Of a DNA stretch of 64,000 nucleotides, positions 13,825 through 36,924 are shown piece after piece. Below the pieces are notes generated by a model. It worked only from the letters and a program-made list of their open reading frames with translations, ran no database searches and had not been told where the DNA came from. The DNA is from Allocatelliglobosispora scoriae (GTDB lineage Bacteria > Actinomycetota > Actinomycetes > Mycobacteriales > Micromonosporaceae). Positions within the stretch are counted from its first letter, which is position 1; every line of letters starts with the position of its first letter. The translations under genes and the position numbers were made by a program. The stretch spans positions 2,379,001 to 2,443,000 of the forward strand of contig NZ_JACHMN010000002.1 of NCBI RefSeq assembly GCF_014204945.1, given 5' to 3'.

Positions 13825-14706
13825 GTGGTGGCGAAACGGCGCAAGGGTGCGGGCACGGTCTTCCTCGTGGTGGTCGCCCTCCTCGTCGCCGGTGGTTTCG
13901 CCGCCTATCTCGCCGGCCGCGATGGTGCCAAGCTGCCATTCCCACTGCCCAAGCTGTCCGGGTGCGTCGTCACGGCGGCCAACGACACGGGTCGCGACTC
14001 CTGGGCGCTCGACGTGACCCAGATGGCCAACGCGGCCACGATCGCCGCCGTCGGCATCCGCAAGAAGGTCCCCGACAAGGCGATCATCGTGGCGCTCGCC
14101 ACCGCCCTGCAGGAGTCCAAGCTCGAAAACCTCGGCGGCGGCGACCGCGACTCCGTCGGTCTCTTCCAGCAGCGGCCCAGCCAGGGCTGGGGGACGGCGC
14201 AGCAGATCAGCGATCCGCGTTACGCCTCGACGAAGTTCTACAACGCGCTCGCCAAGGTGAAGGGCTGGGAGAAGCTCCGGGTCACCGAGGCGGCGCAGAA
14301 GGTGCAGCGCTCGGCCTTCCCCGAGGCGTACCAGAAGTGGGAGGACGAGGCCTCCGTTCTCGCCATGGCCCTGCTCGGCGGTGCCAAGGGTGCCGTGAGC
14401 TGCAACCTCCCGGACGACGATCCGGTCGTCAAGGGCTCCGCCGCCGTCGACCACGTCCTCACCGCGCTCGCGGCCGACTGGGCCGGCACAGCCACCACCT
14501 CCGCCGAGCCGGGCCTGCAGGGTGTCCGCATCGCCGCCGCCGACAACAAGCGCGGCTGGCAGCTCGCCCACTGGACCGTGGCCCAGGCCGCGGAGAACGG
14601 CGTGACCCGGGTCGCCTTCGACGGCCGGGAGTGGAGTACGGAATCAGGCGAATGGCGCGAATCCCAAGCCGTTGCGTCACATGTCCTCGTCGAGGTGTTT
14701 GCCTGA
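13825..14706 (+). CDS. Membrane-anchored lysozyme-like (SLT-type) protein
   Basis: 293 residues. A basic start and a hydrophobic segment (about 11-28) give a signal anchor. The central domain (about 55-185) has ALQESKLEN followed by DRDSVGLFQQRPSQGWGT and a late FPEAYQKWEDEA. The catalytic-type Glu and the S-x-GLFQ loop resemble soluble lytic transglycosylases, so cleavage of peptidoglycan is plausible but not shown. The same domain occurs in the protein at 42854-43633. A second domain (about 195-293) is not recognised. It starts nine bases after the hydratase stop, so the two are probably cotranscribed. Confidence 0.7.
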   Translation: MVAKRRKGAGTVFLVVVALLVAGGFAAYLAGRDGAKLPFPLPKLSGCVVTAANDTGRDSWALDVTQMANAATIAAVGIRKKVPDKAIIVALATALQESKLENLGGGDRDSVGLFQQRPSQGWGTAQQISDPRYASTKFYNALAKVKGWEKLRVTEAAQKVQRSAFPEAYQKWEDEASVLAMALLGGAKGAVSCNLPDDDPVVKGSAAVDHVLTALAADWAGTATTSAEPGLQGVRIAAADNKRGWQLAHWTVAQAAENGVTRVAFDGREWSTESGEWRESQAVASHVLVEVFA

Positions 14707-14729: not shown

Positions 14730-14823
14730 GGCATGCTCCGGAAACGCGAGATACCATCGGCTCTCGCGTGCCTGCACCCTCTTATTGTCGTGGGCTCGAC
14801 CGGACACACCCCTAGGGGAGGAC

Positions 14824-15732
14824 ATGTCGAATTCGTCTTACTACGGCGACCTGACCGGTTATGAGCCGATCAGTGAAGTCGACCGCAAGGAGTTCCACGA
14901 GCAGGGCTTCCTGCTGCTGCGCAACGTTCTGACCGAGGAGCACCGGGCGGCCCTGGAGACAGCGGTCGACCGCGTCTACGCCGAGGAGGTGGCGGCCGGC
15001 AACGACAAGAACGGCACCGTCCACCTGCTGGGCTTCCTCAACCGTGACGAGCTCTTCGGCGAGCTGCTGACGCACCCGAAGGTGCTGCCCTACATGTGGG
15101 GCCTGGCGGGGTGGAACATCTACTCCCACCACAACCACCTCGACGTCACGCCCCCGGCCAAGGAGCCGGAGAAGCCCTACTGGGGCTGGCACCAGGACGG
15201 TTACCGGCAGAACTCCGACCCCGAGACCATGGACCCCAACCTGCCTCGGCCGATGTTCTCGCTGAAGATCGCCTATGTCCTCTCCGACCTGTCGGAGAAC
15301 GGCCGCGGCGCCACCAAGGTCATCCCCGGCAGCCACCTGAAGAACTCGCTGCCGCGCCCGGCCGACCTGAGCGTGCACAACCCCGACCCCGAGGGCACCG
15401 TGGAGATCACGGCGAACCCGGGTGACGCGTTCATCTTCGACCGCCGCCAGTGGCACTCCCGCTCGACGAACCTGTCGACGATCACGCGCAAGATGCTCTT
15501 CGTCGGCTACACCTACCGCTGGATCCGTCACCTGGACGCGATCGATTTCGACCCCAACGGCGAGTGGTACGCCAACCGCACCCCCGTCCAGCGCCAACTC
15601 CTGGGCGAGGCCCCCCACAGCGCGAACTACTGGGGCATCAACTGGGACGGCTACGTGGACGACGAAATCCCCCTCCGCAAGGAACTTAAGACCAGAGGCC
15701 TACTAGACCGCAACATCCCCTGGCTGAGGTAA
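14824..15732 (+). CDS. Phytanoyl-CoA dioxygenase (PhyH) family oxygenase
   Basis: 302 residues. This is a non-heme Fe(II)/2-oxoglutarate oxygenase. The HxD iron ligands are in WHQDGY (about residue 122-126), the distal His in RRQWHSRST (about 210), with the arginine next to it for 2-oxoglutarate. Its overall pattern resembles ectoine hydroxylase-like PhyH proteins but the substrate is unknown. ATG 14824 is preceded by GGGGAGG at ideal distance; this ribosome site is part of a CCCCTAGGGG palindrome (14809-14818). It ends next to repeat A2 and is convergent with the chaplin-like genes. Confidence 0.85.
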   Translation: MSNSSYYGDLTGYEPISEVDRKEFHEQGFLLLRNVLTEEHRAALETAVDRVYAEEVAAGNDKNGTVHLLGFLNRDELFGELLTHPKVLPYMWGLAGWNIYSHHNHLDVTPPAKEPEKPYWGWHQDGYRQNSDPETMDPNLPRPMFSLKIAYVLSDLSENGRGATKVIPGSHLKNSLPRPADLSVHNPDPEGTVEITANPGDAFIFDRRQWHSRSTNLSTITRKMLFVGYTYRWIRHLDAIDFDPNGEWYANRTPVQRQLLGEAPHSANYWGINWDGYVDDEIPLRKELKTRGLLDRNIPWLR

Positions 15733-15739
15733 GCCCCCA

Positions 15740-15818
15740 AAATTCGCGTTGATCAAGGGAAGACTCGCCGCATATCGGGCACCCGGGATGGTGAGTCTTC
15801 CCTTGATCAACGCGAATT
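15740..15818. repeat. Intergenic inverted repeat, family A copy 2
   Basis: Arms 15740-15766 and 15793-15818 around a 26-base loop. Arm sequence is the same as in copy 1 at 619-698, and the loop differs at three positions. As in copy 1 it lies between convergent genes, seven bases after the PhyH stop codon. Confidence 0.9.
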
Positions 15819-15822
15819 GATA

Positions 15823-15862
15823 CGACGGCCCCCGCGCACCGGTAGGTGTGCGGGGGCCGTCG
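15823..15862 (-). terminator. Hairpin terminator of the chaplin-like gene A
   Basis: 18-base arms (15823-15840 and 15845-15862) with one G-T pair and a 4-base GGTA loop. It starts 11 bases beyond the minus-strand stop codon at 15874. It abuts repeat A2, so two strong hairpins separate this gene from the convergent PhyH gene. Confidence 0.8.
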
Positions 15863-15873
15863 CGGTGTTCAGG

Positions 15874-16761
15874 TCAGCTGCCGTTGGTGATCAGCGAACC
15901 CTTGTCACAGCCACCGAAGACGTTGGCGGGGCTGTTGATGGCCGGAGACAGACCGACGATGCCGAGGAGCGAGTCCGACGCGCAGACCTGGATCGGCACC
16001 AGGTTGACGCCGGTGTTGCTGAGCAGCGGGATGACCGCCTGCTGCTCCCGGTCCTCGATGGTGGTCATGGCGTCCGTGCAGCTGCCGACGACGGTCGTCG
16101 GCGAGTTGAAGCCGGCCGCGGCGCCCACGCCCATCACCGCGGTCGAACCGCAGGTCTGCCAGGCGAGCGCGTCGAGCGAGGAGCCGCTGAAGAGCGAGAG
16201 CAGGCTCTTCGGCCCGTGCTCGTGATCCGGCGCCGTGATCTTGGTGCTGGCGTTGTCGCAGTCACCGGTGACGGTGTTGGGGGAGTTCAGCGCCACGGTG
16301 GCACCGACGCCGCCGACGACCGTCGAACCGCAGACCTGCCACGGCGCGAGGTTGACCGAGCTGTCGTCGAAGAGCGAGATCAGGGCCGGTGCCGTGTCCT
16401 GCTTGAGCTTCACGTTGGCGTTGGTGCAGTCGCCGAGGACGGTGTTGGGCGACGAAGCGGCGACGGCCGCACCGACCCCCGCCGTCGCGGTCGAGCCGCA
16501 GAACTGCCACGGCGCCACCAGCAGCGAAGACCCGCCGAAGACGGAGAGCAGCGGCTGCACCGTGTCGTTGGCGCCCAGACCGAACGCGTTCTTGGTGACC
16601 GCCTTCGTGATCGCCTGCGCACTCGAGTTCGGCGCGGTGAGCACCGACGCGGAGCCGAGCTGGGCCGGACCGGTGGTGGGCGAGGCAGCGGCCGAGGTAC
16701 CCATCGCGGCTACCGTCGCGATCGCACCGACGGCGACAGCCCCCGCCTTCTTTATCTGCAT
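15874..16761 (-). CDS. Secreted protein with four chaplin-like Cys-Cys repeats (A)
   Basis: 295 residues. It begins MQIKKAGAVAVGAIATVAAMG with an ASA-A type cleavage site near residue 25, a Sec signal peptide. Four repeats of about 50-58 residues follow (starting near 70, 125, 182 and 240). Each has a LLSVF-like start, a hydrophobic PWQxC, then GSTxxxGVG, SPNTV and GDC, giving two cysteines per repeat about 23 residues apart. The arrangement, mainly the last repeat (PIQVCASDSLLGIVGL), recalls the chaplin domain of Streptomyces aerial-hypha coat proteins, but the spacing is longer. No wall-sorting signal or membrane helix follows. A role in a hydrophobic surface layer is an inference. ATG 16761 has AGGAGTG upstream. 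Confidence 0.7.
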   Translation of the reverse strand: MQIKKAGAVAVGAIATVAAMGTSAAASPTTGPAQLGSASVLTAPNSSAQAITKAVTKNAFGLGANDTVQPLLSVFGGSSLLVAPWQFCGSTATAGVGAAVAASSPNTVLGDCTNANVKLKQDTAPALISLFDDSSVNLAPWQVCGSTVVGGVGATVALNSPNTVTGDCDNASTKITAPDHEHGPKSLLSLFSGSSLDALAWQTCGSTAVMGVGAAAGFNSPTTVVGSCTDAMTTIEDREQQAVIPLLSNTGVNLVPIQVCASDSLLGIVGLSPAINSPANVFGGCDKGSLITNGS

Positions 16762-16835
16762 ACTCACTCCTATTTGGACAGGCCGCCCCGGCTGAGCACG
16801 CGCGGATAGCCAGAGCGGTGAACACTGCACACTGC

Positions 16836-16863
16836 GTAACGATGCTTGATCGTTGGAGTTACT
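16836..16863 (-). promoter_or_regulatory. Putative ECF-type promoter of chaplin-like gene A
   Basis: On the minus strand AGTAAC (16863-16858), 16 bases, CGTTAC (16841-16836). The same two hexamers with the same spacer length stand before gene B, and both lie about 75 bases upstream of their ATG. The pattern is close to the CGTAAC-N16-CGTTGA type consensus I recall for sigma-BldN of Streptomyces, which drives chaplin and rodlin genes. A GCAGTGTT box follows seven bases downstream in both. Confidence 0.65.
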
Positions 16864-16880
16864 CAACGTTGTGAAATGCA

Positions 16881-16915
16881 GTACGGGGCGAGTCCACAAG
16901 GGACTCGCCCCGTAC
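16881..16915 (-). terminator. Hairpin terminator of chaplin-like gene B
   Basis: Perfect 15-base arms (16881-16895 and 16901-16915) with an ACAAG loop, 22 bases beyond the stop codon of gene B and just upstream of the gene A promoter. This indicates that A and B are transcribed separately in spite of their same orientation. Confidence 0.85.
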
Positions 16916-16937
16916 GGGCGTTGCCACAGACCCCGAA

Positions 16938-17993
16938 CTAGTCGATCGTCACGTTGGCGTTGTTGCAGTTGCCGAAGACGGTGTTCGGCGACTGCAGCGA
17001 AACGCCGGCCGCGATGACTCCGCCACCGATGGTGGAGCCACAGACCTGCCACGGCGCGATGTTGACCGAGGAGTTGTCGAGCACCGAGATGAGTGCCGTC
17101 GGGTCGTCCTGGTCGATCCACACGTTGGCGTTGTTGCAGTCCGAGAGGACCGTGTTCGGCGAGCTGGCCGAGGCCGCGACGGCGATGACGCCCATGCCGG
17201 CGGTCGAGGCGCAGACCTGCCAGCTCAGCGCCTGAGCCGCACTGCCGGTGCCGACCGACAGGAAGGTCATCGGCTCGACGTCCCACGGCGCGTCCCAGCC
17301 GCCGTGACGCGAGGCAGCCGCCGGAGCGGCCTTCGTCGCACCCCAGGTGTTGTAGCCACGGGTGGTCGCCGCCTTGACGGCCGGAACCTTCCGCAGTGCG
17401 GTCGCGTTCGCGACCTCCTCGAGGCTGGCGCTCTCCTCGTGGTGGGTGTTGTAGCCGTGGTCGTGCGTGATCACGATGTTGCTGTTGTCGCAAGAGCCCA
17501 GCACCGTGTTGGGCGACTGCAGCGCGGCACCAACGGCGATGACGCCGCCACCGATGACCGAGCCACAGGACTGCCACGACGCGACGGAGACCGCCGTGTC
17601 GCTGAGAACGCTGACGACGCCCGGGATGGTGTCCTGGCTCAGCTTGATGTTGGCGTTGGCGCAGTCACCAACGACCGTGTTCGGCGAGCTGGCTGCCACG
17701 CCTGCGGCGATGACGCCCCAGCCGCCGACGCCGCCACAGGCCTGCCACGAGGCTGCGGTCAGAGCGCTGCCCGTGCCGACCGAGAGCAGCGCCTGCTGCT
17801 CCTGGTCCCACGGCGCGTCCCAGCCGCCACGAGCGGTGCCGCCGCCGAGGAACTGGCTGCCCAGCGCCCGCATGGCCTGCGCCTTGTCCGCGGTGGGGGC
17901 GTGGCCATAGGTAGTGGCGGCGGCGGGCGCACCCATTGCCGCAACGGTCGCGAGCGCGCCAACGGCGACGGCCCCGGCCTTCTTGATCTGCAT
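16938..17993 (-). CDS. Secreted protein with four chaplin-like Cys-Cys repeats (B)
   Basis: 351 residues, paralogue of the neighbouring gene A. The first 20 residues are almost the same (MQIKKAGAVAVGALATVAAMG), giving a signal peptide cleaved near AAA-T. Four repeats contain SWQxC or PWQVC, then SPNTVxGDC/SDC/NC and a NANxxID/KL end. Repeats 1 and 3 are each preceded by GGWDAPWD, and a His-rich HDHGYNTHHEE segment lies in the middle, so the gene arose by internal duplication of a two-repeat unit. ATG 17993 has AAGGAG upstream. The promoter at 18068-18095 overlaps the Nudix stop codon. Function is not known; a hydrophobic surface coat role is inferred. Confidence 0.7.
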   Translation of the reverse strand: MQIKKAGAVAVGALATVAAMGAPAAATTYGHAPTADKAQAMRALGSQFLGGGTARGGWDAPWDQEQQALLSVGTGSALTAASWQACGGVGGWGVIAAGVAASSPNTVVGDCANANIKLSQDTIPGVVSVLSDTAVSVASWQSCGSVIGGGVIAVGAALQSPNTVLGSCDNSNIVITHDHGYNTHHEESASLEEVANATALRKVPAVKAATTRGYNTWGATKAAPAAASRHGGWDAPWDVEPMTFLSVGTGSAAQALSWQVCASTAGMGVIAVAASASSPNTVLSDCNNANVWIDQDDPTALISVLDNSSVNIAPWQVCGSTIGGGVIAAGVSLQSPNTVFGNCNNANVTID

Positions 17994-18067
17994 TGTCACT
18001 CCTTGTGCACATAGGACCGCCCTCGACCCGGTCATATCGGACGAAAGCGGCAAACACTGCACTTTGG

Positions 18068-18095
18068 GTAACGATGAGTTCAGAACCCCGTTACT
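18068..18095 (-). promoter_or_regulatory. Putative ECF-type promoter of chaplin-like gene B
   Basis: Minus strand AGTAAC (18095-18090), 16 bases, CGTTAC (18073-18068), then GCAGTGTT. Matches the promoter of gene A in both hexamers, spacer length and distance to the start codon, while the spacer sequence differs apart from the three bases CAT just before CGTTAC. The -35 hexamer contains the TAA stop of the Nudix gene. Confidence 0.65.
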
Positions 18096-36808: not shown

Positions 36809-36924
36809 ATGGAGTCGACGCGTCGGGGCGGGCCGAGCGTTGTCGCTCATTAAGGCTTCTTTACTGTAACGGCTGAGAGTGTCGAGCGTTTTGTTCATAC
36901 TTGTGGCGCTTACTCTGACCAACT

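Follow-up and report, generated by a model that had tools for sequence, protein, structure and literature searches.

A pair of secreted-type four-repeat proteins in Allocatelliglobosispora scoriae, carrying sigma-BldN-type promoters, as candidate hydrophobic sheath proteins

Little is known of the means by which actinomycetes other than Streptomyces render their reproductive cells water-repellent. The closest described systems are the chaplins, the rodlins, and the hydrophobic proteins CwpA and CwpB of Actinoplanes missouriensis. In the excerpts of the sources cited here, chaplins are defined by three GN motifs 12-13 residues apart (PMC13251363), chaplins and rodlins are targets of sigma-BldN in S. 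venezuelae (PMC4125116, PMC4255298), and CwpB is reported to be essential for sporangium formation (PMC13251363). The DNA analyzed here, called the window, is the full stretch of 64,000 nucleotides (nt) at positions 2,379,001 to 2,443,000 of contig NZ_JACHMN010000002.1 (GCF_014204945.1) of A. scoriae. It encodes two neighboring secreted-type proteins, A and B, each with four repeats that contain two cysteines (Cys). With a rough probability of 0.58, we consider A and B to be secreted hydrophobic sheath proteins of their own sequence family, with a chaplin- or rodlin-like role under the control of sigma-BldN. The parts of the gene pair are listed below in window positions.

16938..17993, minus strand: gene A, a 351-aa secreted-type protein with a linker between two repeat pairs
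17913..17993, minus strand: signal peptide of A, roughly 27 residues to a cleavage site placed by eye
17631..17795, minus strand: A repeat 1, from the repeat profile
17463..17624, minus strand: A repeat 2, from the repeat profile
17106..17264, minus strand: A repeat 3, from the repeat profile
16941..17096, minus strand: A repeat 4, from the repeat profile
15874..16761, minus strand: gene B, a 295-aa secreted-type protein with four repeats
16681..16761, minus strand: signal peptide of B, roughly 27 residues to a cleavage site placed by eye
16396..16557, minus strand: B repeat 1, from the repeat profile
16234..16389, minus strand: B repeat 2, from the repeat profile
16051..16206, minus strand: B repeat 3, from the repeat profile
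15889..16041, minus strand: B repeat 4, the most divergent, from the repeat profile
16881..16915, unstranded: terminator-like hairpin between A and B with a perfect stem of 15 bp
15823..15862, unstranded: hairpin after B, 18-nt arms, 94% complementary, terminator-like

Gene B lies closely downstream of A in the same direction, with a hairpin in between. The signal peptides of A and B are near-identical (MQIKKAGAVAVGALATVAAMG and MQIKKAGAVAVGAIATVAAMG), and a signal-like N-terminal segment, judged from the alignment rather than with a predictor, was kept in the alignments of A and of B. The first-pass annotation had described near-identical signal peptides, four repeats per protein, and two Cys about 23 residues apart in each repeat; this was confirmed with exact coordinates, and the Cys were 24-25 positions apart (23-24 residues between them) in all eight window repeats. 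Each repeat runs from a hydrophobic strand through [WILVF]Q-x-C-G-S, a Gly/Ala/Val-rich stretch, SPxTV, and GxC to N-x-N. Across 70 non-redundant repeats, only Q18, C20, and C45 were invariant, while S22, S37, P38, V41, and G43 were nearly so. A hidden Markov model built from the relatives, with the window sequences left out, found all eight window repeats at independent E-values of 1.1e-20 to 5.4e-29. When the repeats were compared in pairs, all 28 comparisons scored 6.0 to 17.7 standard deviations above shuffles. The repeats are therefore not due to chance. Exactly 8 Cys were present in 32 of 33 protein rows (2 from the window and 31 relatives, not all independent, as L044 and L054 are one contig); the exception, L053, is cut by a contig end. 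In A, the motif GGWDAPWD stands ahead of repeats 1 and 3, and an insertion in repeat 1 (C-to-C 37-42) was seen in eight rows, all of genus g16. The most alike repeats within A were 1 and 3, and 2 and 4 (scores 168 and 169), so A looks like a doubled two-repeat unit.

The window repeats had a mean grand average of hydropathy of 0.50 and 6.7% charged residues. Similar values were obtained for two chaplin sets (0.46 and 0.48, with 3.2% and 7.5% charged residues), namely short chaplins of genus g63 and other chaplins, 53 domains together; genus g63 is equated with Streptomyces on the basis of its chaplins, rodlins, and BldM. Rodlin segments, at 0.00 and 12.8% charged residues, were unlike the window repeats and not hydrophobic overall.

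No Pfam domain was found above the cut-off in A or B, and neither protein had an NCBIfam match at E up to 10. In the 33 rows, the last 60 residues were scanned with a simple pattern for a C-terminal sortase signal; none was found, the only string flagged being an internal LSNTG in B. The earlier statement that the proteins have no anchor or catalytic motif agrees with these searches, in which none was recognized, and no Pfam or NCBIfam match above the cut-off placed A or B in an unrelated enzyme or binding family. Two matches fell below the cut-off and were taken as chance: TFX_C with A (E 0.0071; 16.7 bits against a cut-off of 27) and DUF1161 (E 0.22). A PDB sequence search with A alone returned only thrombospondin chains, at E 4.3 and 9.9, and a limited search of titles and abstract starts found no description of the repeat family. 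A and B belong to a real, conserved family of secreted-type two-Cys repeat proteins, distinct by sequence from chaplins.

The strongest indication of a role in development is the promoter. In an excerpt of the source, sigma-BldN recognizes CGTAACN16CGTTGA, known from bldM (PMC2375139), and a core of the CGTAAC-N16-CGTT type, GTAAC-N16-CGTTAC, was found at both A and B.

18068..18094, minus strand: sigma-BldN-type promoter of A, GTAAC-N16-CGTTAC, with both boxes unchanged in all relatives read
17994..18067, minus strand: leader of A, containing the conserved block AGTGCAGTGTTTGCCGCTTTCG
16836..16862, minus strand: sigma-BldN-type promoter of B, GTAAC-N16-CGTTAC

Upstream of A, the core was present in 17/17 rows (14 distinct sequences, homologous to each other and not 17 independent cases), 100-117 nt before the start codon. 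Conservation was 100% in the boxes, 72% in the spacer, and 57% in the next 60 nt upstream; invariant boxes with a variable spacer and a poorly conserved upstream region are the signature of a -35/-10 pair. The exact core occurred at A, at B, and at one further place in the 9.15-Mb genome; a reversed control matched once per strand. A looser form, GTAAC-N15-17-CGTT, was seen in 28 of 1832 background windows; within the window it gave four matches versus 0.22 expected, three of which were the A and B promoters (one read on both strands) and the fourth was at 36866. Immediately following the -10 box of A, a block like AGTGCAGTGTTTTGCCGCTTTCGCCCGAT (18035-18067) was also kept across genera.

BldN orthologues were present in 10/10 Micromonosporaceae examined at 61-70% identity (69% in A. 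scoriae), using a BldN query sequence that was 93% and 96% identical to two g63 genomes. The gene directly after bldN is presumably rsbN, which is expected there. The looser core stood directly after bldN at 11/12 loci; A. scoriae has AGTT, and with the class widened to [CA]GTT after this was seen, all 12 loci matched (2 g63, 10 Micromonosporaceae). The A promoter thus resembles the one after bldN, and the rsbN promoter is described, in an excerpt of the source, as BldN-dependent in S. venezuelae (PMC4255298). A longer form with N6-[AG]GTGC, a pattern devised after both sets were seen, was present at 7/10 Micromonosporaceae bldN loci and in 16/17 A rows; its 17 matches in 769,364 nt of Micromonosporaceae DNA (both strands summed) were all A or B promoters. 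In one g63 genome (L161), the exact published motif precedes the gene of a response regulator of 203 residues that we take to be BldM from its sequence. Strings with 0-1 mismatch were present in 6/6 g63 genomes, with the downstream gene read for L161 only. BldM was not found at E 1e-50 in the 10 Micromonosporaceae, in a search without a positive-control genome. A second BldN-like sigma factor (50% identity) is encoded at G000:C2:2470620-2471243(-), about 75 kb from the A/B pair.

By repeat profile (E 1e-6), the family was detected in 19/354 Micromonosporaceae genomes and 6/44 genera, and a sequence search with A in 150 Micromonosporaceae genomes found the same 19. Names are available for three relatives, Rhizocola hellebori, Catelliglobosispora koreensis, and a Hamadaea bin. 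Rhizocola, Catelliglobosispora, and Hamadaea form short spore chains or globose bodies and are not known to form classic sporangia, and the earlier description of a "sporangiate" actinomycete was not borne out by these relatives.

The gene neighborhoods were read at sixteen loci from 15 other genomes, with neighbor names taken from Pfam (the orf at 13825 had no Pfam match). The gene family occupies a conserved site between NUDIX-lepA and PhyH-orf-ECH-hemW. All six neighbors matched at 12/16 loci; L052, L053, and L054 are cut by contig ends, and L058 matched lepA, orf, ECH, and hemW, with NUDIX and PhyH not matched. The L058 genome has four repeats in total, that is, one gene and not two. The shared neighborhood and the single gene of L058 speak for vertical inheritance with duplication, or loss in L058, rather than recent import. 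The PhyH-type dioxygenase adjoining the pair (14785-15732, plus strand) was 93-98% identical in L050, L051, L052, and L054, 78% in L045 and L049, and 54-56% in genus g16, a spread unlike that of its neighbors.

In 394 genomes of the class, short proteins of family f17 were matched by the profile as well, at E down to 2.3e-9; other class-wide matches at E above about 5e-4, many of them short or partial and some translated, were treated as chance.

L095-L105, L107, L126: f17 single-repeat loci

The f17 relatives are about 80 residues long, with a signal-like start and a single repeat, and often several of the genes stand in tandem. In profile-profile comparisons, for which all shuffle controls held the Cys columns in place, the window-type repeat matched the f17 single-repeat profile with an HH probability of 96.7%, and 0/60 shuffles were as good. 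This match indicates the same repeat, arranged as one repeat per gene and several genes in f17 and as four repeats per gene in the Micromonosporaceae pair. Four tested f17 proteins matched no Pfam or NCBIfam family above the cut-off. Some f17 relatives (L107, L096, L100) end in His/Gly-rich tails, such as HHHGHHGHHGHHY in L107, which are suggestive of metal binding.

If A and B are sheath proteins, transcription from a sigma-BldN promoter would lead to their synthesis at the onset of aerial or reproductive growth, and the Sec signal peptide would export them. Each repeat may then be closed by its own Cys-Cys bridge over the 23-24-residue Gly/Ala/Val-rich loop, and the proteins, without an anchor, would self-assemble on the wall, where the beta-prone hydrophobic repeats would coat the surface of emerging or sporulating hyphae. 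The surface coat role proposed in the first-pass annotation gained indirect support from the sigma-BldN-type promoter and the chaplin-like hydropathy; the role itself we infer.

Several observations weigh against this reading, in addition to the homology of the A promoters and the narrow spread of the family. The promoter upstream of B was found in only 6/16 rows, from A. scoriae and Hamadaea-type genomes. The core departs from the published motif in that its -10 box ends in AC, not GA, and the leading C is also not kept; the published motif itself, with one mismatch allowed, gave 13-18 matches per g63 genome versus 3-12 for the reversed control. No such core was found at the distant BldN-like loci L189-L191. 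Upstream of g63 chaplin and rodlin genes, which are reported BldN targets, GTAAC-N15-17-CGTT was found in 0/38 cases, which means that part of the regulon goes unmarked by this motif; a looser form showed no enrichment either (5/38 vs. 68/774), and a word count on these upstream regions, whose start codons were set by a fixed offset, gave nothing clear. The f17 genes seemingly have a TTGACA-type promoter (by eye, three loci), which implies that not all of the repeat family is tied to development. AlphaFold, run on A and on B with 15 sequences each, gave a mean predicted local distance difference test (pLDDT) score of 41 for B and 32 for A, a confidence too low for use; at that confidence, the best B model had six strands in each of repeats 1-3 and four in the last, the other four B models were near 28, and the A model had no strands drawn.

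Among the other explanations, the likeliest is a secreted binding or adhesion function of A and B, for substrate, wall, or metal, in which they merely happen to be made during development and form no structural coat. In some species, the linker of A is rich in His and Gly, and the His-rich tails of some single-repeat relatives would fit such a function. We regard this as unlikely, given that no binding, wall-anchoring, or catalytic domain was found above the cut-off and that the His-rich stretches vary between species, with none in the alignment of B.

It is less likely still that A and B are true, very divergent chaplins with a longer loop between the Cys. The suggestion that they are a variant family not covered by the chaplin model was correct as to the model: PF03777 did not match A or B even at E 10, and in the genome-wide search it hit other genes only, with nine matches at the cut-off, one of them only with its neighbors, at three other loci.

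G000:C2:3799343-3800197: own-genome chaplin L061
C2:3590222-3590923: own-genome chaplin L062
C3:294760-295620: own-genome chaplin L063

The presence of these chaplins in the same genome speaks against A and B being divergent chaplins. The own-genome chaplins combine two chaplin domains that contain Cys with a long linker and a final chaplin-like domain in which the paired domain Cys are missing; no sortase signal was seen by eye. None of the three genes had a sigma-BldN-type core within 600 nt. A and B do share with chaplins a secretion signal, a hydrophobic mature domain, and the pattern P-[hydrophobic]-[QN]-[hydrophobic]-C-[GN] around the first Cys. A merged profile of 112 sequences aligned with the 53 chaplin domains over 28 columns at the first Cys, with 2/200 shuffles as good and a probability of 13.8%. 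The window-type repeat reached 1.8% against the short chaplins and 0.8% against the other chaplins (7/60 and 9/60 shuffles as good), compared with 98.8% and 0/60 for the control of short versus other chaplins. The single-repeat set gave 16.9% (1/60) and 5.9% (4/60) against the same two sets; in an earlier unshuffled run with other settings, its probability against all 53 domains was 43.0% when compared one way and 4.2% the reverse way. The GN motif was absent from 7/8 window repeats and occurred once in the eighth; family-wide, at least one was present in 34/125 repeats and three in 2/125, versus three in 30/53 and two or more in 49/53 chaplin domains. Chaplin Cys had 17 residues between them in 29/53 domains and another spacing in 24/53, versus 23-24 in the window. 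On the PF03777 profile, the GN motifs, and the Cys spacing, A and B were not filed as chaplins. "Chaplin-like" in the sense of homology is not upheld by the profile comparisons, which hint at shared ancestry around the first Cys but do not establish it.

It is very improbable that A and B are rodlin relatives bridged by the single-repeat f17 proteins, and they were not filed as such: rodlins also come as pairs, the f17 segment VPILSPQTTGDC resembles the rodlin segment VPVLSSPQNQQC, and the single-repeat profile scored above all 60 Cys-held shuffles, at a probability of 9.2%, but the window-type repeat reached 0.4% (15/60 shuffles as good), 51/200 shuffles were as good for the merged profile, no NCBIfam match was found as described above, rodlin segments are not hydrophobic overall, and the rodlin profile NF041022 matched one genus only (9/148 class genomes), with no match in the A. 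scoriae genome at E 0.01.

Returning to A and B as sheath proteins under sigma-BldN, we tentatively suggest that they may form a third, independently evolved class of developmental sheath beside chaplins and rodlins, which took over the BldN-controlled role in one branch of the Micromonosporaceae. In that branch, the PF03777 chaplins of the A. scoriae genome do not have a sigma-BldN-type promoter. The conserved syntenic pair with its promoter offers a handle for predicting the spore-coating proteins of these genera, predicts that sigma-BldN is able to drive a coat from an unrelated protein family, and adds a two-Cys repeat for comparison with chaplins on what makes a functional bacterial amyloid.

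A dispersed palindrome was also observed at 15741-15818 and 627-690, with further copies in the genome; its near-perfect arms are AATTCGCGTTGATCAAGGGAAGACTCGCC and the complement around about 20 nt. The 17-mer core GTTGATCAAGGGAAGAC, with up to one mismatch, occurred 89 times on each strand (reversed control 0), and almost all of the places listed form pairs with a spacing of 47 bp. Among the 22 copies read, the arms were nearly identical and the inner 20 nt were found in both orientations. The copy at C2:3589210 precedes a chaplin gene by about 1 kb. An Rfam match on the palindrome (15745-15813; 34 bits vs. a gathering score of 90) was taken as chance.

Compared with known systems, A and B resemble rodlins (RdlA/RdlB) as a secreted gene pair expected in the same regulon, and the f17 relatives share with rodlins an SP-x-x-x-C-like motif; rodlins differ from A and B in being single-unit proteins, not hydrophobic overall, found here in one genus only, and without a profile match. 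CwpA and CwpB, compared by description only from an excerpt of the source, are hydrophobic non-chaplin surface proteins of a member of the Micromonosporaceae, as proposed here for A and B, but they are sortase-anchored, and CwpA has four widely spaced Cys (PMC13251363). The f17 proteins have the repeat in common with A and B and are unlike them in carrying one repeat each, in tandem genes, behind an apparently housekeeping-type promoter. In contrast to chaplins (PF03777, ChpA-C/DUF320; ChpA-H of Streptomyces), A and B have no match to the profile, 23-24 rather than 17 (or fewer) residues between the Cys, and almost no GN; the chaplins of the same genome are separate genes without the A-type promoter. 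They are like chaplins in being secreted and hydrophobic, in their two Cys per domain and similar hydropathy, in having one or several domains per protein, and in their probable control by sigma-BldN.

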